Positions 5,682 to 38,030 of a stretch of 38,030 nucleotides of DNA are shown here, in pieces. The DNA is taken from contig JBAXGN010000060.1 of the NCBI GenBank assembly GCA_037139415.1, positions 1-38,030 of the forward strand. Direction: 5' to 3'. The notes under the pieces are model-generated. The model did no database searches, had not been told where the DNA came from, and worked only from the letters and a program-made list of their open reading frames with translations. The position numbers and the translations under genes are program-made. Every line of letters starts with the position of its first letter. The first letter of the stretch is position 1. The stretch is from Verrucomicrobiota bacterium (lineage in GTDB: Bacteria; Verrucomicrobiota; Verrucomicrobiia; Limisphaerales; Fontisphaeraceae).

Positions 5682-8234
5682 CTATTCGGCGTTTATAATA
5701 ACGCTTCCCGCCAGGTTTGTTCCCAGGAACCAGCCGTAGCCGGCATTTTGGTTTTGGAGCAGTGCGCCGTTGATGGTTCTGGTGGTCTTCGTTCCCGGAA
5801 TTCCAACACTGCCGGTGAATAATCCGGCTTTAATACCGGTCGTGGTCAGCGTGAGTTTCAGTCCGTTGGTGCCGGTCACTTTGTTTCCTGCGCCAATCGC
5901 GATCCCGTTGGTGACACTTTCGGCAAGATTCCCGCCTTCAAGAATTATCGTGCCATTCGTCCAGTTCAGGATCTGCGGCAAATTGGTGAAGGATGAGCCG
6001 ACCGCGTTGCAGACCTCGCAAGGCCAGCCAGTGGTGTACATTTTCGCCTTGGGTTGTGCCGGCTTGCTCCAGCTCACCACCCCTCCCAAATCTGTGTTGT
6101 TCGTAAAATTCAGCCAGCCGATCACCATTCCGGTTTTCCCGTACAGCGCGCTGTAAAGCGGCCATTGTCCGGTTTTGGACACAACGGTGCTGGCCGTCAC
6201 GGGCTCGCCGTCGCCCATTGCCCCGTTCACCGTCACGCCCCCCGTCGGACTCACGCTCACCGCCAGCGCACCATAACCTCCGGGAAGATTCGTCGAACCG
6301 CCGTTGCTGGTAATGACGAGCGTGTATTGGCCGGCTTGTGGTGCGGGGTTGAGCTTGGAATAGGCTGCCCGCAGGACATAGATTTCCGCCGTCCAGGTGC
6401 CGTTGCCAATGCGTCCGGTGATGGCACTGCCACTGTGGAGATCAATTTGCAGCGTTGCGTTCCACCCTGCTGCACCTTTGATCGAAGCGGTCTGCCAAGT
6501 GCCGTCTAGCGCAAACTGGCCTGACAGCGGATAACTCTTTGCACCCTGCTGCACTTGAGCGGTAAAGGTCCCGGCTGGGGTCACACTGATGGTGAAGGAG
6601 CCCGCATTGCTGACGGCTACGCCGTTGGTATCAGAGAACAATCCGCTATAGTTCCCGGCAATCGGAATGAATGGGTTGGGTACAAAATTGGCCACCAGTG
6701 TCAAATTGCTTTCCATGGTGAACTTCAAGGCTGGGCCATTGGTCAGGACGGCTCCGGCTCCATTGACCCAGTTGGAGAACAGGTAGCCTGTTCCCGGTAC
6801 CGCCGTCATCGTGTAGCTTTGCCCGAGTTCCAGCAGCTTGCCGTTGTAGCTGCCTTTGATTGTCCCGTTGCCGTTGGTCCAAACTGTCAATGTGTCGCTC
6901 GCAATATACAGAAAACTGACGCTGCTGGTTGCGGAATAGTTGCCGACTGCGTCCGTGGCGTAGGCTTTGACTGTGTTGGAACGCATGGTTAACGGAAGTG
7001 TGGCTTCCCAGGTTGTCGTGCCCGTGGCTGGCTGCCAAGTTCCATTGTTCAATTGAAACTGCACGCCGGTTATTGCCGCACTGCCGCTCGCTGTTCCCTT
7101 CACGGTGAAAAGGCTGTTGCTCACTCTTTGGCCGATTTTAGGTTCCGCAATCGCCAAGGTTGGCTTGGCGATCTTGATCGAGCTGTTAAGCCGTCCAAGG
7201 TTGGCGCGTGCCTGCCCGCCCAGGGTGGCAAAGTTTCCCCCCACCAATATTTTCCCATCCGGTTGCAGCGCCAACGACGACACCCAGGAGGCTTGTGCAC
7301 CCTGGTAACTTCCACCGTCTATCCCCACCTTGAACGTGGTGTCCAAAGTGCCATTGGCATTGAGCCGGATGACGCCTAATGCTGGCTGATAGCGTATGCC
7401 GTTCAGCTTGGTAAACGTTCCCCCCAACAAAACCTTCCCGTCCGGTTGCACCACCATGGCTGAGGCGAAGCTATTGACGCTCAAGCTGAAAGTGGAGTCC
7501 ACGCTGCCATCCGCATTGAATCGCGCAAAATACTTGATCCCCTTGCCATCCGGCGTGGGGAAAGCTCCACTGGCAAGGATTTTCCCGGTGGGTAACACCG
7601 CCAGGGAAAACACGGAAGGACCGTTTATGGACCAGTTAGTGCTGGGATGAAAAGTGCCATCCAGACTGCCATCCGCATTAAATCTACCAATGCACAGGCG
7701 CGGTTGTCCCGCCAGCGTCGTGAATTCCCCGCCCACGAGGATTTTTCCATCGGGTTGTGCCGCCATGGTGAGTACACTATATGTGTCGGTGCCCGCCCAC
7801 TGGCTGTTAAAGGCGGCATCCGTACTGCCATCCGCATTGAGCCGTTTAATCTGGCCATTCACCAGTTGGAGAATTTTACCCTCGGGCTGCATCACAAGGT
7901 GTGCTGGACTTGCCCCTGGGAAAAAGAATGGATCGCGGCTCCCATCCACATTGAGTTTGCCAAAACCCCAGGTGACGGATTGGCCGCCTAGCGTCGTAAA
8001 GCTTCCCGACACCAGTATTTTACCGCCACTCAAAACCGCAATATTTTCCACGAGGTCATTCGCTCCCGGATTAAAGGAATCCAAGGTTTGGGAACGGCCT
8101 GGCATGGGTGCGGCCAATAGAAAGCCCAGCAGAGAACTGATCGCAAGTTGTTTTTTGGCACACTGAATGTATTCCCTTGTCGTATGGCGGTAAGGGAGCA
8201 CTCCTTTTGATTCGCTATTCATAAGCTCATTCAT
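5682..8234 (-). CDS. Large secreted protein with delta-60 repeats, Ig-like and InlB-B-like modules
   Basis: The 850-residue product has a long N-region then a signal peptide ending near PMPGRSQ (about 48). Residues about 50-355 hold roughly six delta-60 (TIGR02608-type) repeats of the form QPDGKILVGGxFT...GRLNADGSLDTTF, expected to fold as a beta-propeller. An Ig-like segment (about 360-445) and a bacterial-repeat module (about 448-515, GxGTIKGSYNGKLLELG) follow. The C-terminal third is beta-rich, with two related blocks beginning GNYSGLF and GQYTLVI. Met5 (8222) is an equally good start. It is probably the first gene of a two-gene unit with the GH65-like enzyme. The modules suggest an extracellular or surface protein of binding function; no catalytic residues were recognised. 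Confidence 0.85.
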   Translation of the reverse strand: MNELMNSESKGVLPYRHTTREYIQCAKKQLAISSLLGFLLAAPMPGRSQTLDSFNPGANDLVENIAVLSGGKILVSGSFTTLGGQSVTWGFGKLNVDGSRDPFFFPGASPAHLVMQPEGKILQLVNGQIKRLNADGSTDAAFNSQWAGTDTYSVLTMAAQPDGKILVGGEFTTLAGQPRLCIGRFNADGSLDGTFHPSTNWSINGPSVFSLAVLPTGKILASGAFPTPDGKGIKYFARFNADGSVDSTFSLSVNSFASAMVVQPDGKVLLGGTFTKLNGIRYQPALGVIRLNANGTLDTTFKVGIDGGSYQGAQASWVSSLALQPDGKILVGGNFATLGGQARANLGRLNSSIKIAKPTLAIAEPKIGQRVSNSLFTVKGTASGSAAITGVQFQLNNGTWQPATGTTTWEATLPLTMRSNTVKAYATDAVGNYSATSSVSFLYIASDTLTVWTNGNGTIKGSYNGKLLELGQSYTMTAVPGTGYLFSNWVNGAGAVLTNGPALKFTMESNLTLVANFVPNPFIPIAGNYSGLFSDTNGVAVSNAGSFTISVTPAGTFTAQVQQGAKSYPLSGQFALDGTWQTASIKGAAGWNATLQIDLHSGSAITGRIGNGTWTAEIYVLRAAYSKLNPAPQAGQYTLVITSNGGSTNLPGGYGALAVSVSPTGGVTVNGAMGDGEPVTASTVVSKTGQWPLYSALYGKTGMVIGWLNFTNNTDLGGVVSWSKPAQPKAKMYTTGWPCEVCNAVGSSFTNLPQILNWTNGTIILEGGNLAESVTNGIAIGAGNKVTGTNGLKLTLTTTGIKAGLFTGSVGIPGTKTTRTINGALLQNQNAGYGWFLGTNLAGSVIINAE

Positions 8235-13095: not shown

Positions 13096-14016
13096 ATGAA
13101 AGCAACCCGCCGTGAATTCATCCGCCGCTCGGCTCTGGCCGTTGCTGGTTACGGTTTGGCGCAGCCATGGGCGGCTCGCGCTGCAGCATCCGGAATTAGT
13201 CTCGGATTCAGCCTGTACGGCATGAAGTCGCTGCCGCTGGATGAGGCTTTGCGCGCTTGTGCCGCGATTGGCTATCGCAACGTGGAACTGACGTTGACGC
13301 CGGGCTTTCCTTCCGAACCCAAGCAGTTATCCGCCACCGCGCGCCAGGCGCTTCGCCAACAACTGCAATCCCTGTCGCTGGAGTTGTCCGGCCTCATGTT
13401 TAATTTGAAGCTGGTGGTGGACGATGCCGCGCACGCGAAAAACCTGGAGGAAATCAAGGTGGCCGCCGAACTGGCTCATGACCTTGCGCCGGACCGGGCC
13501 ACCGTGGTGGAGACGGTGCTGGGCGGCAAACCCTCCGAATGGGACGCGGTGAAAGAGCGCATGGTTGAGCGGTTGCAATCGTGGGCGGAAGTGGCGAAGC
13601 GCGGGAAGATCATCCTGGGCGTCAAAGCCCATGTGGGCAGTGCGGTACACCTGCCGGAACGGTTGCTCTGGCTGCTGGATCGGGTGCCGGGAGACGCGGT
13701 GGCCGCCGTCTTTGATTACAGCCACTTCGAACTGCAAGGCGTGGGCCTGCCGGAGTCACTGAAATTGCTGTTGCCGCGAACAAAGTTTATTCATGTCAAA
13801 GATGCCACCGGGGATGCGAAAAAGTTCCAGTTCCTGCTGCCCGGCGATGGCAAAACTGATTATGTGGCCTACTTCAAATTGCTGCAACAGCACGGGTACC
13901 AGGGCCCGGTGGTGGCGGAGGTGAGCGGGCAGATATTCAGCCGGCCAGGGTACGATCCCCTCGCCGCCGCCCGGCAGTGTCATGCCAAACTTGCGGCGGC
14001 CTTGAATGGAGTTTGA
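13096..14016 (+). CDS. Tat-exported sugar phosphate isomerase/epimerase-like TIM barrel
   Basis: The 306-residue product starts with a twin-arginine signal (TRREFIRRSALAVAGYGLAQP, cleavage near ARAAA). The remainder is a xylose-isomerase-like TIM barrel (AP_endonuc_2, PF01261): EALRACAAIGYRNVEL early, AVFDYSHFELQG and FIHVKDATG with metal-binding Asp/His positions, and a closing GYQGPVVAEVSG. Such exported barrels are common in Verrucomicrobiota and Planctomycetota and travel with Gfo/Idh/MocA oxidoreductases, as here, where one follows 31 nt downstream. The substrate is probably a sugar or cyclitol; the exact reaction is unknown. ATG 13096 places the Tat motif at the N-terminus. Confidence 0.87.
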   Translation: MKATRREFIRRSALAVAGYGLAQPWAARAAASGISLGFSLYGMKSLPLDEALRACAAIGYRNVELTLTPGFPSEPKQLSATARQALRQQLQSLSLELSGLMFNLKLVVDDAAHAKNLEEIKVAAELAHDLAPDRATVVETVLGGKPSEWDAVKERMVERLQSWAEVAKRGKIILGVKAHVGSAVHLPERLLWLLDRVPGDAVAAVFDYSHFELQGVGLPESLKLLLPRTKFIHVKDATGDAKKFQFLLPGDGKTDYVAYFKLLQQHGYQGPVVAEVSGQIFSRPGYDPLAAARQCHAKLAAALNGV

Positions 14017-14047
14017 CCGGATAACCATGTTGGAGCACAAAACGATT

Positions 14048-15628
14048 ATGAAAACGAACGAATTATCACCCGTGAATGCCAGTGGGACGAAGAGTCAGCC
14101 TGAAACTGCGAGTCTTTCCCGTCGCCGGTTCATGCTGGCCAGCGGAACGGTGGCCACCGCCTTTACCATCGTGCCCCGGCATGTCCTGGGCGGCCCGGGC
14201 CACGTCGCTCCCAGCGAAAAGATTGCCCTGGCCTACATCGGCTGCGGCACCCAGGGTTTGCGCGAAATGCCGAAGATGCTCGCCGCGCCCGAGGTGCAGA
14301 TCGTGGCCGTGTGCGATCCCGTCAAGGATGGTCATGATTATGTGGACTGGTCCAAAGATAGCCATCGCAAGATGCTGGCCAACACCATGGGCAAACCGGA
14401 TTGGCGGCAGGACGCGCCGGGCATCCCCGGCGGCCGCGAAATCGCCAAAGAGTTCATCGAGACCGTTTACGCCAAACAGCGGGCAGCAGATAAGTTCAAA
14501 GGGGTGACCGCCTATGCGGATTTCCGCGAACTGCTGGACAAGGAATCGGACGTCAACGCCGTTAAAATCATGACGCCGGACCACCTGCACGCAACGGTGT
14601 CCATCGCCGCGATGAACAAGGGCAAGCACGTCGTCATGCACAAGCCGCTGGCCAACCGGCTGCTGGAGGCCCGCTTGGTGATCGAGACGGCGCGCAAGAC
14701 CAAAGTGGTCACCCACTTCCTGCCCTCCAGCAACGGTGCCAACGTCCGCACCATCAAAGCCTGGATTGATGCGGGTGCCATTGGTACGCTGCGCGAAATT
14801 CACAACTGGTCCAATCGCCCGGTGTGGCCCCAGTATCCGACTCTCCCGACGGATCAGCCGCCGATCCCGCCCGATTTTGATTGGAACCTGTGGCTCGGCC
14901 CTTCGCTGGACCGTCCCTATCATCCCAACTATACCCACGCGGTATTTCGCGGGTGGTACGAATTCGGCGGCGGCGCGGTGGCCGATATGGGACATTACAG
15001 CCTGTGGCCGGTGTTCCAGCAGTTCAACCTCGACGCCCCGGTGCTGGTGGAATCCCGCCCCAGCCACCTCTGCACGCTCAACGGCCAGGTGGCCACCAAA
15101 ATCAGGAACGACTACTCTTTCCCGGCGGCGTGCATGATCCGGTTCAAGTTTGCCGCCCGCAACGAACGCCCGGCCCTGGATCTCTTCTGGCACGACGGCT
15201 CCATGAAGCCGCCCACGCCCGAGGAATTGGAGGCGGACAACCTGGAACTCGCTCCGGAAGGCATGCTATTTATCGGCGATCGGGGAAAAATCCTGGCCGA
15301 CTTTCGCGGGGAAAACCCGCGCATCATCCCCGCGCAGAAAATGCGCGAATTCCAGGGAGCCAAATCCCTGCCCGAGGCAGTGGCCACCCCGGGCGGCCGC
15401 AGCGATGGTGAGGCGGCTTGGCTGGCGGCGATCAAGGGTGGCCCCTCCACGTTTGGCGATTTCTCCCTGGCCGGTCCGATCGCGGACGCCTTCAACCTGG
15501 GCGCGATCTCCCTGCGCATGGGCGGCCGCCGCCTGCGCTTTGATGCGGCGACCGCAAAAATTACCAATGTACCCGAAGCCAACAAATACCTGACCCGCGA
15601 ATATCGCAAAGGCTGGGAGCTGGCCTGA
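14048..15628 (+). CDS. Tat-exported Gfo/Idh/MocA family oxidoreductase
   Basis: The 526-residue product has a Tat signal (SRRRFMLASGTVATAFTIVP, about 25-44) and a Rossmann fold with AYIGCGTQGLREM (NAD(P) binding). The usual EKP catalytic motif reads VVMHKPLAN here, with Lys kept and Glu replaced by His. The C-terminal substrate domain includes WNLWLGP and EFGGGAVADMGHY, typical of the exported verrucomicrobial and planctomycete subgroup. It probably oxidises or isomerises a sugar or inositol derivative using a co-exported cofactor. ATG 14048 is preferred; 14027 and 14006 are alternative in-frame starts. Likely co-transcribed with the TIM-barrel gene before it. Confidence 0.9.
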   Translation: MKTNELSPVNASGTKSQPETASLSRRRFMLASGTVATAFTIVPRHVLGGPGHVAPSEKIALAYIGCGTQGLREMPKMLAAPEVQIVAVCDPVKDGHDYVDWSKDSHRKMLANTMGKPDWRQDAPGIPGGREIAKEFIETVYAKQRAADKFKGVTAYADFRELLDKESDVNAVKIMTPDHLHATVSIAAMNKGKHVVMHKPLANRLLEARLVIETARKTKVVTHFLPSSNGANVRTIKAWIDAGAIGTLREIHNWSNRPVWPQYPTLPTDQPPIPPDFDWNLWLGPSLDRPYHPNYTHAVFRGWYEFGGGAVADMGHYSLWPVFQQFNLDAPVLVESRPSHLCTLNGQVATKIRNDYSFPAACMIRFKFAARNERPALDLFWHDGSMKPPTPEELEADNLELAPEGMLFIGDRGKILADFRGENPRIIPAQKMREFQGAKSLPEAVATPGGRSDGEAAWLAAIKGGPSTFGDFSLAGPIADAFNLGAISLRMGGRRLRFDAATAKITNVPEANKYLTREYRKGWELA

Positions 15629-20282: not shown

Positions 20283-21098
20283 ATGGAAACAGTACGTTGT
20301 GCAACACCCAGCAGCGCTGTTCTTGCTGGGAAGAGGACCTCTTCTCTCCTGCTGCGAGAGTATATATTATTCGGATTTCGGGTTCCTTTCGGTCTTCGGC
20401 ATTCGGTTTTCGGCATTCTCTTTTTCCTCACTCTCCTGCTCTGCGGCTGCGCCTCAACCCGCAGTCATCCTGCCCATTGGACGATCAGCGCAACCGATAC
20501 GGATGCGCCCGCCATCGCTCGTGCCCAACAAACGGTGGCGACGCTGTTCCCTGCGGATTATCGCAGCGTGCACCGGGCCATCCTCACCATGGGCCGACGG
20601 CAATTCACGTGTGACGGGGTGCTGACGGTTTCCGCCCGCGCCAAGTATCACCTGGCCTTGATCAGCCCGCTGGGGTTGGTCACCGATCTGGAGGCGGACA
20701 CGGACGGCGCGGTCAACGTGCGCAAGGTCACCGCGATCTTCCGCGAGGACTGGAGCCGCAACCACGTGGCGCGCGACCTGCGCTGTATCTTCATGCCGCC
20801 CGGCAAACTGGAAACCAACGGGCGACTTGCTGATGGACGCTTGGTGCTGCGCGGCGCGCTGGATCGTGACGGGTTAACGCCGCAGTACTTGTTTTCCCCG
20901 GATGGCGCGCAGTTGCAGGAGATGGAATGGCTGCGCGCCGGGCGTTGTGTCTATCACGTGAACATCCGGCGGCATCGCACGGTGACAGGCCACCCCAACC
21001 CTATTCCCTCGGAGTTGGAAGTGGATGCCGGCCAGTACCACTTGAATCTGCGCATTGCGGAATTGACGGTCTCACCAGACGGAAAGGTTAAACCGTGA
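20283..21098 (+). CDS. Lipoprotein, LolA/DUF3261-like, first gene of lipid-modifying operon
   Basis: The 271-residue product has a lipobox LLLCGC (Cys56) and a beta-rich mature part that starts near STRSHPAHW. Its pattern (GRRQFTCDGVLTVSARAKYHLALISPLGLVTDLEAD) resembles the outer-membrane-directed LolA/LolB/DUF3261 lipoproteins found in aryl-polyene-type clusters; this is recognition by eye. The start is uncertain: the stretch before the signal peptide is unusually long (50 residues) and partly made of a dispersed ttcggatttcggg-type repeat, so translation may begin at a non-ATG codon nearer the hydrophobic core. The stop overlaps the next gene's GTG start. Confidence 0.7.
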   Translation: METVRCATPSSAVLAGKRTSSLLLREYILFGFRVPFGLRHSVFGILFFLTLLLCGCASTRSHPAHWTISATDTDAPAIARAQQTVATLFPADYRSVHRAILTMGRRQFTCDGVLTVSARAKYHLALISPLGLVTDLEADTDGAVNVRKVTAIFREDWSRNHVARDLRCIFMPPGKLETNGRLADGRLVLRGALDRDGLTPQYLFSPDGAQLQEMEWLRAGRCVYHVNIRRHRTVTGHPNPIPSELEVDAGQYHLNLRIAELTVSPDGKVKP

Positions 21099-27491: not shown

Positions 27492-28352
27492 TTATTTGCC
27501 ACCCGCTTCAGCAGCCAGGCTTGCGGAATATTCCTTCCAGGCCCGGATGGATTGCTTGAGGTTTTCCACCTTGTCACCCTTGACGTTGTAACATTGCAGT
27601 CCGATGGGACCGCGATATCCCACCGTCTTCAATTCCCGGAGGAAACCCAGGACATCGTACGACCCCTTGCCCAACGGCTGAATGAGTTGTTCCCAACCAT
27701 AGCCGGGCATCAGCGGCTCCGCTCCATTGACGGAAACCAGCATCAGGTAAGGCAGCGCCTCACGAATGGTTTTGGAGAGTTCAGGCCCCTGGCCACCGCG
27801 TAATTCATGGCACAGGTTGATGGATATCCCCACGTTTTTCCGGTCAATGCGTTTTATAAAACGCAGCGCATCCGCAGCGACGGACGTATAATCACCCGCA
27901 TGAGGATATATCGCCACCCGCAACCCACCCACGGCCACCTGGTCGGCAAACTCGCGAATAACCGCCACCGCTTTGTCATCATCCTGCCCGCGTTTTTTAC
28001 CCGCCACCGTGAGCCAGAAAATCATGTCGGTTCCCTTGAGTTCCTGAACCGCGTCCTTGAGGGCGGGATCAATGGATGGTGTTTTATCGAGATCACACCG
28101 CACATAGGTGGCAAAGATTTTCAGACCGGCGGCCTCGTACGTTTTAATTTGCGGCAGCAACTTGTAGCCACGGGAACCCAGTCCGTCATAGCCCAGTTCT
28201 TTCAACACTTTCTCCGGTTCCGGGATGCCACCGATGCCGTTATCAAAGGCAAAAAACGGATTGGCCAAACCGCGTTCGGCCGCGTGAACTCCCAAGCCTA
28301 GCAACACGGTTAGGAAAATAGCCCAAGGATGTAAAGTGAGTCGGTAAGACAT
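27492..28352 (-). CDS. Exported sugar phosphate isomerase/epimerase-like TIM barrel
   Basis: The 286-residue product has a signal peptide (about 1-24, LHPWAIFLTVLLGLGVHA) and a xylose-isomerase-like barrel: VLKELGYDGLGSRG, FATYVRCDLD, RVAIYPHAGDY, GISINLCHELRG and GYRGPIGLQCYN. Metal-ligand positions typical of the family (His, Glu, Asp) are largely present. It is the last gene of a minus-strand series (Gfo/Idh/MocA, HEAT, ThuA, this gene), a combination repeatedly seen in Verrucomicrobiota and thought to serve sugar or cyclitol breakdown. The 63-nt gap to the ThuA gene is compatible with one transcript. Confidence 0.87.
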   Translation of the reverse strand: MSYRLTLHPWAIFLTVLLGLGVHAAERGLANPFFAFDNGIGGIPEPEKVLKELGYDGLGSRGYKLLPQIKTYEAAGLKIFATYVRCDLDKTPSIDPALKDAVQELKGTDMIFWLTVAGKKRGQDDDKAVAVIREFADQVAVGGLRVAIYPHAGDYTSVAADALRFIKRIDRKNVGISINLCHELRGGQGPELSKTIREALPYLMLVSVNGAEPLMPGYGWEQLIQPLGKGSYDVLGFLRELKTVGYRGPIGLQCYNVKGDKVENLKQSIRAWKEYSASLAAEAGGK

Positions 28353-28415: not shown

Positions 28416-29414
28416 CTATTTCTTCAGCTCATGATCCGCTGGTTTTAAACCCTTCTTGTACGCGCTGAAGCCGTAAAAGCTGGGCTGGTAGTCACCCACA
28501 ATGGCGACATCAGCCCGAGCCGGAACGTTCAGGTCGAGTGTCCAATACACACCATTGACAATCAGGCGTCGCAAATCCTCACACGCCAGGTCCATGGCCG
28601 AACCCATGGTGGTGGTCAAAATTTTATTCACTTTACCCGCCTCGTTGGTATGGGAACGCGTCCAGACAATCGGCATCATGGGATTGTTTTTGGGACCATC
28701 CAGCGGCGGATCCGTTGGCTGCATACCGGCAAGAACTTGGCCGCGCATCAGGACTTTCACATCGGCAGGCGGGTTGGCGACATAAACATCCGTGTTGCCA
28801 AAGACATCCGCCACGCCGCGCAAAATCGGGTCGTTCTTGGCCGCTGGTTCCGCCAAACCACGGGTAGCTTCAAACTTGTGCTTTCCGTGATGGTTAACCC
28901 ACGTTTCGCCGAGCACCTGCCGACCAAAGCCCCCCTTCCATTCCTGACTGTTGAAACTGTATTTCTTGTACGGACTGGTGGAATTTTTACCATACCGAAA
29001 GGCATGGGTGCTGGTGCGCAAGGCAATGATCGGCTTGCCAGCCAGATAGGCATCCACGAAATGCTTCATCTGCTCATCCGGCCACTCGCGGAACCGCAGG
29101 CCGAGAATGATGCAATCCGCCGTATCCAAAGCTTCAGCCCCTCCCAGACTTGCACAATTTGTCGGGTTAATGGTGCCGTCCTTGTCCACCGCAAATAGGA
29201 CGGAACATTTAAACCCATGCCGTTCCGCCAGGATTTTTCCAAGCATGGGCATGAATTCTTCCGAGCGGTATTCCTCGTCGCCGGAGAGCAGCACCACATG
29301 TTTCCCCTTGCCCGGGCCAGCCTTGCCTTCAAAGGTTGCGAAGTCCGCCCCCAAAGTCGCCAAGATGGAACCTGACAACACCGCAATCATGGATAATTGG
29401 CTCATCAATTTCAT
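28416..29414 (-). CDS. Exported ThuA-like domain protein
   Basis: The 332-residue product has a signal peptide (MKLMSQLSMIAVLSGSILATLGA) and a ThuA-like (PF06283) class I glutamine-amidotransferase-like fold: KHVVLLSGDEEYRSEEFMPML, LDTADCIILGLRFREWPDEQMKH, KPIIALRTSTHAF and the late VWTRSHTNEAGKVNKI..TTMGSAMDL. ThuA proteins are linked to trehalose and other disaccharide use, probably together with Gfo/Idh/MocA enzymes such as the one upstream. ATG 29414 is preferred over 29435 for the signal peptide. The HEAT gene ends 41 nt upstream of this start. Confidence 0.9.
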   Translation of the reverse strand: MKLMSQLSMIAVLSGSILATLGADFATFEGKAGPGKGKHVVLLSGDEEYRSEEFMPMLGKILAERHGFKCSVLFAVDKDGTINPTNCASLGGAEALDTADCIILGLRFREWPDEQMKHFVDAYLAGKPIIALRTSTHAFRYGKNSTSPYKKYSFNSQEWKGGFGRQVLGETWVNHHGKHKFEATRGLAEPAAKNDPILRGVADVFGNTDVYVANPPADVKVLMRGQVLAGMQPTDPPLDGPKNNPMMPIVWTRSHTNEAGKVNKILTTTMGSAMDLACEDLRRLIVNGVYWTLDLNVPARADVAIVGDYQPSFYGFSAYKKGLKPADHELKK

Positions 29415-33644: not shown

Positions 33645-33750
33645 AGCTCAAATTCCACACTCCGCAATCCGCATTCCGAAATCCGCATTCGAGAGTTTCC
33701 GCATTCCGCAATCCGCATTCCGAATTCGAGGGTTCCGCAATCCGAAATTA
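33645..33750. repeat. Degenerate short tandem repeat (tccgcattccgaaat type)
   Basis: About eight imperfect copies of a 7-8 bp core (tccgcaa/ tccgcat/ tccgaaa) run through this stretch upstream of the DUF433 gene. The same kind of phrase recurs as cggatttcggatttt near 3541-3556 and ttcggatttcgggttcc near 20370, and more weakly near 16916. It appears to be a dispersed low-complexity repeat of this genome. Confidence 0.7.
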
Positions 33751-35889: not shown

Positions 35890-35897
35890 AATGAAAA

Positions 35898-35925
35898 AGT
35901 ATTAAGGATTAAGTATTAAGGATTA
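35898..35925 (+). repeat. Left repeat flanking the four-helix-bundle gene (2 x 14 bp)
   Basis: AGTATTAAGGATTA occurs twice in perfect tandem at 35898-35911 and 35912-35925. Its reverse complement, with a short insertion, flanks the other side of the four-helix-bundle gene at 36374-36400. A third related stretch (aaggattaaggataaaagag) at about 35969-35988 leads to the gene's stop codon. Confidence 0.75.
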
Positions 35926-35990
35926 AACGGTGGGTGGTTCTGGTTTTGAATGGATTTTGCATTGATACAAGGATTAAGGATAAAAGAGGG

Positions 35991-36353: not shown

Positions 36354-36373
36354 AGGCTGCCTTGCGCTTTTTA

Positions 36374-36400
36374 TACTTAATCCTTTATCCTTAATACTTT
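36374..36400 (-). repeat. Right repeat flanking the four-helix-bundle gene (inverted)
   Basis: On the minus strand it reads AAAGTATTAAGGAT followed by AAAGGATTAAGTA. This matches the tandem at 35898-35925 in inverted orientation. It lies between the FN3 stop codon and the four-helix-bundle start. Confidence 0.7.
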
Positions 36401-36402
36401 CC

Positions 36403-37323
36403 TCACAGCACCACAATTTCTTTGTCTTCGCTCGGCTGGCTTTCGCCGGTGTCGTTGGCGGCGGTGACGCGGAATTTGACGGTCTTGCCGGTGGGCAGGC
36501 CGGTGAGGCGCACGTCGCTGTTGTCGCGGTTGATGACGTGGCGGAAGTCTTCATCCACGTCCACGACCTGAATAAAGATGCGGTAGTAGTTGGCGCGGCG
36601 GGAATCGGGCCAATCGGCCAGGAGCACGCCGGGGCCATCGGTGGTGACGATGAGGTTTTCCGGGATTTCGGGCAGATCGGGCGCGCCGGGTTGGTCCAGG
36701 CCAAAGGCGTCCCAGCGCGGGTCCAGCGGGTCCATCAGGGGGGTGAGTTCCTGGATGAGGGCGCGCATGCGCACGCGCAGGGTTTCCATGGCGGCATCGC
36801 GGGCGACGCGTTTTTGGGAGGCGGCGACGACGCCGTCATTCCAGGCCTCGTGGGCGTCGTGCATGGCGTCAAAGAGGAGGCCGGCCTTGGCGGCGGTGAC
36901 TTCCAGCGGCGCGTTTTCCATGGTGGGATTCTTGGTGAGGTAGGTCTTGAGGTCGGTGCAGAGTTGGCTGCGCTTGGCCTGGTTGCCGGGGACGGCGGTG
37001 GAACCACCCGGCCAGTTGGTGCCCTGCCAGTTCTGGTTCCAGTGTTCGCCGAATTTCTGGGCAAAGATGGCGCGGGTGGCCTTGATGAAGGCCCGCATGT
37101 TGGAGTCGGCAATGCGGATGTTCGCGCCCAGGGTTTTTTTGGCCTTTTTGGCGTCGCTGAAGTTCATGGTGGCGGTATCCGTGGCGGCGATGTCCACGAG
37201 GAATTTGGCCTCGGTGTTTTGTTTGACGCCGATCACGGTTTCATACCGGTGGAGACCGTCCACCATGTCTCTGGCCAAGCTCATGACCTGGCCGTATTGG
37301 TTGGGGATGGGGTTGCTTGCCAT
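36403..37323 (-). CDS. Helical protein with C-terminal fibronectin type III domain, second locus
   Basis: The 306-residue product lacks a signal peptide. Residues about 1-205 are largely helical (ARDMVDGLHRYETVIGVKQ, DAKKAKKTLGANIRIADSN, AKAGLLFDAMHDAHEAWND, METLRVRMRALIQEL). After a Pro-rich linker (PGAPDLPEIPENL), an FN3 domain spans about 220-306, with YRIFIQVVDVD, RLTGLPTGKTVKFRVTAAN and ESQPSEDKEIVVL. It shares with the gene at 370-1005 the layout helical region plus FN3, an in-frame 27-codon leader with an RYG motif, and an upstream 21-bp-period array. The N-terminal sequences of the two are not obviously homologous. ATG 37323 has no clear ribosome-binding site. Function unknown. Confidence 0.8.
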   Translation of the reverse strand: MASNPIPNQYGQVMSLARDMVDGLHRYETVIGVKQNTEAKFLVDIAATDTATMNFSDAKKAKKTLGANIRIADSNMRAFIKATRAIFAQKFGEHWNQNWQGTNWPGGSTAVPGNQAKRSQLCTDLKTYLTKNPTMENAPLEVTAAKAGLLFDAMHDAHEAWNDGVVAASQKRVARDAAMETLRVRMRALIQELTPLMDPLDPRWDAFGLDQPGAPDLPEIPENLIVTTDGPGVLLADWPDSRRANYYRIFIQVVDVDEDFRHVINRDNSDVRLTGLPTGKTVKFRVTAANDTGESQPSEDKEIVVL

Positions 37324-37404
37324 ATATTTAACTTTGGTTTTTGGGGTTAGGGTTTCGTGTTCGTCGTAACAAAAGTGGCCCCAGCGGCCGTGACCGTAGC
37401 GCAT
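37324..37404 (-). other. In-frame 27-codon leader of the second FN3 gene with RYG motif
   Basis: ATG 37404 lies exactly 27 codons before ATG 37323 and in frame with it. The residues begin MRYGHGRWGHFCYDEHE. Compared with the first locus, R-Y-G, G and F are identical and two aromatic positions are conserved, with spacing kept. It may be the authentic N-terminus or a leader peptide. Confidence 0.5.
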
Positions 37405-37499
37405 GTGATTGGTGAGTTGAGGGTTGCGGTTGTAGGAGCCGGGGGCTGACCGCCCAGGCGTCCAACCGGGCGGAACGCCGACGGGATGCCCCAAAAAGG

Positions 37500-37880
37500 C
37501 GATTTTGGGAGCTCCAGAGTGGATTTATGCCCGGAACAAGGGTTGGGCGGCAGTCCAAGCCGTGGGAACGCAGGCGCGAAGCGTTTTTTGGACCGCCAGC
37601 GGGTTTTTGCGCACCAAAAAAGGTTTTTTTCGTCCTCCAGAAATTATTTATGCACGGGAAAAGGCTTTTTGTGACCATAAAAAAACTTTTATGATGGGAA
37701 AAAGGCTTTTTTGGCTCACAAAAGTTTTTTTGCGATGGGAAAAAGGGTTTTTGCGTCCATAAAAAATCTTTTACGACCGAGAAAAGGGTTTTTTGGTGCG
37801 TAAAAACGTTTTTGCGGGTGAAAAAAGGGTTTTTTGGTGCACAAATTTCCGTAGTCGGGTGGGAAAACGGTTCTTGAGTG
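37500..37880. repeat. 21-bp-phased A-tract/T-tract array
   Basis: T runs recur at 37503, 37524, 37543, 37563, 37584, 37604, 37624, 37645, 37666, 37687, 37707, 37725, 37748, 37769, 37789, 37809, 37830 and 37871, that is every 20-21 bp over about 370 bp. From about 37613 each T run is preceded by an A run, giving units of the type gggAAAAAGGcTTTTTtgg. Two unit types alternate (gggaaaaaggcttttt and cataaaaaaacttttatg), so the full period is about 42 bp. Early units (37500-37600) are GC-rich relatives. Each unit is close to self-complementary, so the array looks alike on both strands. Stops interrupt all frames; it is not coding. Confidence 0.85.
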
Positions 37881-37998
37881 GATTGAATGGCAGTTACTTG
37901 CGCAAAAATGGCGCGTCGGGAGGGAAAAGGCTGGGGATAGGTTAGAGCCTCATGACTTCGGCTGCTACCGTGGATGGATGGCGCGGTCAGGCGCTCAG

Positions 37999-38030
37999 TT
38001 GGGCGTTGGTTGGCTTGGGCGTTGGTTGGC
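37999..38030. repeat. Two perfect tandem copies of a 16-bp unit at the window edge
   Basis: TTGGGCGTTGGTTGGC occurs at 37999-38014 and 38015-38030. The repeat may continue beyond the window. The stretch 37881-37998 between this and the A/T array shows no gene. Confidence 0.8.

Follow-up and report, generated by a model that had tools for sequence, protein, structure and literature searches.

Phased dyad arrays: a recurrent class of intergenic tandem arrays with helical spacing and two-fold symmetry, exemplified in a Verrucomicrobiota genome

The array at the end of contig C60

The window is the whole of contig C60 of the source genome (G000), 38030 bases in length. Read on the minus strand, its last kilobase comprises a REP-like palindrome, the array, a conserved 27-codon stretch and a gene for a 306-residue protein, in that order. 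The features are as follows.

36403–37323, minus strand: neighbour gene, 306 aa, downstream of the array; weak fibronectin type III match, below the Pfam cut-off
37324–37404, minus strand: conserved 27-codon stretch MRYGHGRWGHFCYDE... between array and gene (sequence comparison)
37490–37580, no strand assigned: left part of the array, weaker and decayed, register retained (weak axes)
37580–37850, no strand assigned: array core, A-tract/T-tract units with a 41-bp dimer (autocorrelation with shuffles, symmetry scan, reverse-strand self-match)
37941–37968, minus strand: imperfect REP-like palindrome that begins with GTAG when read 5' to 3' on that strand (sequence comparison)
37999–38030, no strand assigned: 16-bp tandem TTGGGCGTTGGTTGGC, two copies, at the contig end (repeat scan); it also terminates contig C151 (end of locus L029)

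The A/T-indicator autocorrelation over 37580–37880 reaches 0.44 at lag 41, with values of 0.27, 0.24 and 0.28 at lags 20, 21 and 62, whereas the maximum in 1000 dinucleotide shuffles is 0.21 at lags 19–22 and 0.23 at any lag from 10 to 70; at lag 10 the autocorrelation is absent (0.005). The peaks at lags 41, 20 and 62 therefore give a period of 20.5 bp, with a 41-bp dimer, and the array is genuine and far above chance. It lies where a first-pass annotation of the sequence had placed it, and the excess of phase over shuffled sequence for which that annotation had proposed looking is present. The strict 21-bp period (42-bp dimer) that it described gives way to 20.5 and 41 bp, however, and its approximately 18 T runs at 20–21 bp spacing to 13 runs of at least four between 37500 and 37880, whose starts are 18–23 bp apart where the series is unbroken. 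The annotated extent was 37500–37880; the orderly part is ∼37580–37850, and 37490–37580 shows only weaker axes.

Axes of two-fold symmetry fall every 20.5 bp at the left of the array and every 10–10.5 bp over most of it. An inverted-symmetry scan with 60-bp arms gives z up to 8.1, compared with 2.8 in shuffles, and aligning the array with its reverse complement gives a 205-bp match at 71%. It is most simply described as a 20.5-bp segment whose orientation alternates. Matches to this unit elsewhere in the genome are confined to three array loci and are otherwise weak.

Two further arrays of the same genome, on C151 and C147, lie between the same two flanks. The anchor-to-anchor distance is 541 bp in both C60 and C151, and the distances of the axes from the right anchor agree (17.0 modulo 20.5 in both); weak axes in the left part of the C60 array lie ∼427 and ∼366 bp upstream of the anchor, and the first of these is also present in C151. 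The two arrays are nevertheless only 57% identical at offset zero (17–43% at offsets of one to five), compared with 90–95% over the final 61 bp of flank before the anchor. We conclude from the equal axis positions at this identity that the letters change while the register is kept. Recent slippage of a single unit, from which the first-pass annotation had set the array apart, is disfavoured on the same grounds, since length and register are both retained. C147 lacks a stretch of 41 columns in the alignment and has some smaller gaps away from the array core. A test for compensatory changes in the C60–C151 pair gives no significant result, 6 of 14 both-changed pairs being still complementary (p = 0.31).

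Each of the three copies of the 306-residue neighbour gene in G000 (C60, C151 and C89) has an array upstream, and the C147 array lies upstream of a TIR gene. An initial scan of genome contigs with the neighbour protein found no relative. The 27-codon stretch is in frame with the gene in C60 and C151, whereas in C147 it is closed by a stop after 18 codons. A short coding stretch of the form MR[YH]...WG[HR]F..D thus precedes three genes of two families (window 37324–37404 on the minus strand; L007 from 5277; L029 near 7640–7720), in frame with two of them and as a separate 18-codon frame at the third; it could be a leader peptide or an old fusion. The gene immediately downstream of the C147 array (L007:5345–6775) has a TIR domain and an ORF6C match. 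At the other end, the assembly breaks of C60 and C151 are probably due to the 16-bp tandem.

The GTAG palindrome, which is conserved beside the arrays of C60, C151 and C147, is a border element outside the array proper. It is found also on C97, where there is no array, beside a gene for a Y1 transposase (C97:27497–27841, with GTAG-tagged palindromes at 27965–27988 and 28448–28472). On C147 a second Y1 gene (13823–14167) lies less than 1 kb from the palindrome match at 14750–14823 and the array at ∼14869–15179. These Y1 (HUH) genes and their tagged palindromes are a probable REP/RAYT system. G000 has eight matches to PF01797 (Y1 transposase), although G002, in which no symmetric array was seen, has two, and G077 has none and yet carries two phased matches. 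None of the palindrome's 13 matches in the genome is on a contig of the other arrays (C2, C10, C20, C31, C40, C89 and C306), so that the palindrome looks like local company and not part of the nature of the class.

Recurrence of the spacing with unrelated units

The window array belongs to a class of intergenic tandem arrays, here termed phased dyad arrays, whose recurrence became clear from a search for further copies in this and related genomes. A 792-kb sample of G000, not fully random in that C31 and C89 were included owing to earlier weak hits, contains arrays with lag 21 or 42 on C2, C10, C31, C20, C40 and C89, each with a unit of its own; the C306 array was found by similarity search. 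Among the remaining hits at these lags, one looks coding (L163, on C4) and two are not array-like (L170 and L179). On C10 (L154:1389–2055) two arrays with different 21-bp units lie end to end in a single intergenic stretch, and the start of C40 (L174:1–180) looks like another 21-bp array.

Two relatives show different aspects of the class. In G064, ten of 18 repeat arrays in 183 kb have lag 41, three of them on contigs (C30, C48 and C72) picked after earlier matches. Their units are homogeneous within arrays and unrelated between them, 33 of the 36 pairs among nine arrays having fewer than five 12-mers in common, and their flanks share almost no 13-mers. G007 has a single array family at 18 places, several of them partial, with ends in common. 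The 11 strictly anchored copies that retain both ends (C119 is without its left end) measure 82, 167, 209, 293, 334, 335 (four copies) and 377 bp (two copies), so that length steps are 42 bp to within 1 bp; gaps in pairwise alignments are whole units or sums of them, barring single-base offsets in pairs with C54 or C217. No target-site duplications were seen by eye in these copies.

Among 20 arrays of the class, a series of axes is clear in 12, at 20.5/21 bp (or 10–10.5 bp); L202 is borderline and seven are weak or irregular. No such series is present in 15 other repeats of G000 (lags 12–60, multiples of three). Many of the class arrays have no A/T hairpin core, and many have GC-rich axes. Neighbouring frames, scanned for 30 of 35, are ordinary and diverse, and include CinA, DNA polymerase III alpha subunit, PfkB, glutamine amidotransferase, a PLP enzyme, sigma-70-type factors and a TIR protein; a single common neighbour gene family is accordingly disfavoured. 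On a simple longest-frame map, every orientation of arrays relative to neighbour genes occurs. Given this diversity of neighbours and of orientation, a leader, a terminator or a single regulon does not fit. The many similar arrays that the first-pass annotation had named as possible support thus exist, but their association with the same gene families holds only locally, at C60, C151 and C89.

The A/T form of the array provides a clean control because it is searchable as a pattern. Pairs of AAAANSNTTTT cores were counted in 293 genomes of the order, with the reversed pattern as control. At a spacing of 40–42 bp there are 81 forward matches in 13 genomes (reversed control, 6 in 4 genomes), whereas at 35–37 bp there are none (7 in 7) and at 30–32 bp only 4 in 3 genomes (3 in 3). 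G000, G007 and G064 together account for 65 of the 81, overlapping registers of one place being counted separately; those in G076, G077, G153, G165, G276 and G287 are known from the matched strings alone. These counts, together with the axis series, strongly support the first-pass proposal that the tracts face one side of the helix. In G169, two similar places (C221:1491–1532 and C327:13059–13100) have A/T cores exactly 31 bp apart, or three helical turns.

A sequence-agnostic scan at lags 10–100 was applied to sampled parts of G000, G064 and G002, to a stretch of E. coli and, outside their target regions, to 80 further loci whose genomes had been chosen for carrying such arrays. It gave 17 arrays with two-fold symmetry at z ≥ 5, of which 14 have a best lag of 21, 41, 42, 63 or 82; the other three have best lags of 96, 36 and 14. 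No symmetric array was seen in 400 kb of G002, which belongs to the same family, or in the 50-kb E. coli stretch, and the element is dispensable, judging from G002.

Beyond the order, a search with one genome per species for core triplets spaced 40–42 bp apart found at least 117 stretches. Eighty loci from it represent Bacteroidetes, Verrucomicrobia, Cyanobacteria (Nostoc), Acidobacteria, Aminicenantes, Hydrogenedentota, Bacilli, Spirochaetes and others, with best lags of 20 (4 loci), 21 (13), 40 (3), 41 (26) and 42 (34), and two-fold symmetry at z ≥ 5 in 63. Since they were selected for a core spacing of 40–42 bp, these loci show breadth and array length, not preference. The score of one (L255) is inflated by a masked N run, its visible units being 21 bp apart, and at least one other (L243, from Shouchella) has the look of a coding coiled coil. 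Among 387 genomes of the phylum, almost all of them from outside the order, the triple pattern occurs only in G000 and in one apparently coding case. Viral contigs show no peak for three cores at 40–42 bp (2 stretches, compared with 2 at 35–37, 5 at 45–47 and 9 at 30–32 bp), and a viral origin is disfavoured. The class is thus recurrent, with unrelated units and periods of 20–21 or 40–42 bp, in G000, its relatives and other phyla.

Relation to described repeats

The nearest described element is the BrickBuilt minisatellite-MITE of Porphyromonas gingivalis. According to its description (PMC4596501), this is an intergenic tandem array of variable copy number with few inter-unit indels, bounded by a common leader and tail, present at 19 places in one genome and predicted to form long stem-loops; its 23-nt units make up one sequence family, for which the paper reports no BLASTn match outside the species, and promoter activity in both directions is a trait of the type. 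On that account BrickBuilt is very like the G007 family, which is likewise intergenic and tandem, with common ends at many places. Common flanks are found also for the C60, C151 and C147 arrays, and little is shared by the others; terminal inverted repeats were judged by eye. The 23-nt unit does not, however, correspond to two helical turns, whereas the arrays described here have periods of 20–21 or 40–42 bp (the dominant lag of the window array being 41) and units that are mostly unrelated.

REP/BIME elements with RAYT transposases, as outlined in PMC3733652, are intergenic palindromes in alternating orientation with one tagged sequence per family. The GTAG-tagged palindrome that borders three arrays and the Y1 transposases of G000 are features in common with that outline. 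The array units, in contrast, have no common tag or sequence and no spacer, and most of the arrays found have no adjacent REP. The array itself does not show the alternation of a tagged palindrome (GTAG/CGTC) shared across the genome, the tag being confined to the border element, which is absent beside the other arrays found. A chromosome-wide periodicity of 10–11 bp is also described (PMC7537859). The window array resembles phased A-tract curved DNA in the helical phase of its A/T tracts; the class differs from it in the two-turn phase with two-fold symmetry, the discrete arrays, the mild bend and the GC-rich axes of some members.

CRISPR arrays have regular spacing and partly palindromic units, and in this respect the window array is similar. 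It has no invariant repeat with unique spacers of equal length, however; its period is 20.5 bp and its variation falls on both half-units, so that a CRISPR array fits poorly in sequence, symmetry and period, in line with the first-pass annotation. The centromere repeats of the ParR/TubR type and plasmid iterons also place ∼20-bp sites on one helix face, with one shared sequence that is read by a cognate protein encoded alongside. In the phased dyad arrays, by contrast, the sequence is private to each array, there are many arrays per chromosome and there is no common neighbour gene. A literature search, incomplete for subscription journals, gave no recognised account of a class set by period and symmetry with private sequences. 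Intergenic tandem palindromic repeats are, as a kind, already known; that these arrays are more than that is a real possibility.

Possible origins of the spacing

A repeated peptide is not encodable with a 41-bp period; of the six frames of the window array one is open over at least 90% of its length, and eight of 20 arrays have no such frame. A coding repeat is therefore rejected. Intrinsic terminators, with a GC-rich stem and a T tail, are rejected as well, no terminator-like site being present within the array (the region has one, at 37197–37213, compared with 2.6 in shuffles). The window and four other loci (66416 bases) have no Rfam match at the gathering score, which rejects a described structured RNA family in all five sources.

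Several readings of the array can be set against these observations. At the RNA level, a transcribed array could fold to a long hairpin that affects transcript stability or binds a protein, and each strand does give a better fold than its set of 100 shuffles (z −5.3 and −5.7), with BrickBuilt as a parallel (PMC4596501). The best fold on either strand is mainly one long rod, and many arrays have no A/T core, in disagreement with the ladder of small AAAA-GGC-UUUU hairpins envisaged by the first-pass annotation. Mismatches in the arms are G-T in 195 cases and A-C in 206, with one of 19 arrays at p < 0.05; there is thus no consistent asymmetry, and no consistent G-U preference of the kind either RNA reading would lead one to expect. 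Arrays also occur in every orientation to genes, and an RNA hairpin needs no two-turn phase in DNA. We regard an RNA-level element as improbable. Intrinsic curvature from phased A-tracts as the whole function appears more improbable still. A wedge model predicts stronger curvature than in dinucleotide shuffles for 12 of 19 arrays (z < −2) and weaker curvature for none (z > 2), but only eight rank in the top 5% for curvature among tandems with scrambled units and equal period, and the predicted bend is mild: the end-to-end ratio is 0.77–0.96, against 0.28–0.48 for phased A-tract reference strings (0.847 for the window array, z −2.6 versus shuffles). The window array has no lag-10 autocorrelation, and many others have GC-rich axes. 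The curved DNA of the first-pass annotation has no more than moderate support. A REP/RAYT or MITE-like mobile unit, running from the 27-codon stretch to the palindrome with the array as cargo, could account for the shared flanks of C60, C151 and C147 (the last beside a different gene), for the closeness of palindrome and Y1 gene on C147 and C97, and for the dispersal of the G007 family with common ends. It is made unlikely by the absence of palindrome matches (0 of 13) from the contigs of other arrays, the nearly unrelated flanks in G064, the phased matches of G077 in a genome with no Y1 match, and the lack of visible target-site duplications in G007.

The reading that we tentatively prefer is a helix-phased architectural element at the level of DNA. 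RNA hairpins, terminators, CRISPR and REP/BIME fit worse than either this or its main rival, and what remains once the RNA and curvature readings are set aside is the phase and symmetry of double-stranded DNA; that arrays lie in any orientation to genes, with no consistent asymmetry of G-T against A-C, likewise argues for DNA rather than RNA. In the simplest description of the class, a segment of ∼20.5 bp alternates in orientation (U, U', U, U'...), which brings axes every 20.5–21 bp, or every 10–10.5 bp where the unit is itself symmetric, and at this spacing all axes lie on the same helix face. The constraint would act on double-stranded DNA, and a candidate partner would be a symmetric (dimeric) DNA-binding or nucleoid protein of low specificity, or a topoisomerase-like enzyme, that docks once per two turns along one face; alternatively, in-phase axes may yield a planar bend. 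The array would then act as a local architectural site between genes. The main rival, an appreciable possibility, is a neutral or selfish minisatellite with a built-in ruler, in which amplification (for instance with the template switched at a hairpin or dumbbell intermediate) yields two-turn copies that alternate in orientation, and the period is set by the enzyme and not by selection on what it makes. Units private to each array and homogeneous inside it (G064), length changes almost only in whole units, and one family dispersed to 18 contigs (both in G007) are all consistent with this, and hairpin-primed copying would be expected to leave alternating orientation. The retention of length and register by C60 and C151 at 57% identity, with no sign of turnover, argues against it; no enzyme with such a ruler was found in this analysis, and we know of none that measures two turns. 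The architectural reading has its own difficulties in the non-significant compensatory test between C60 and C151, the mild and non-universal curvature, the poor axes of eight of 20 arrays, the origin of 65 of 81 pattern matches in three genomes and the dispensability suggested by G002. The helical fit is also inexact, as periods of 41 and 42 bp both occur in G000, and to postulate a protein that responds to symmetry and phase and to nothing else is to assume a great deal, given that no shared sequence motif and no binding protein was identified. A broader version, in which an element defined only by geometry recurs in several phyla, with two-fold axes every two turns (or every one) on one face and a sequence free to drift, we think rather unlikely; it would imply that some protein or enzyme recognises symmetry and phase instead of bases.

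Tandem repeats are usually defined by their sequence, and here unrelated repeats share a spacing and a symmetry, which suggests that it is the spacing, and not the letters, on which something depends. If the spacing is kept by selection, the arrays would point to a kind of architectural or topological site that has gone unrecognised in bacterial chromosomes; if it is the work of an enzyme, they would point to an amplification reaction with a two-turn ruler.

The window contains some other tandem repeats. Its first 55 bases, at the contig start, are a perfect 21-bp tandem repeat of 2.6 copies, which may be what is left of a further array truncated there. The short tandem repeats at 33652–33748, 35897–35926, 36370–36400 and 20388–20424, whose units are 7 or 14 bp long, are a different kind of repeat from the array.
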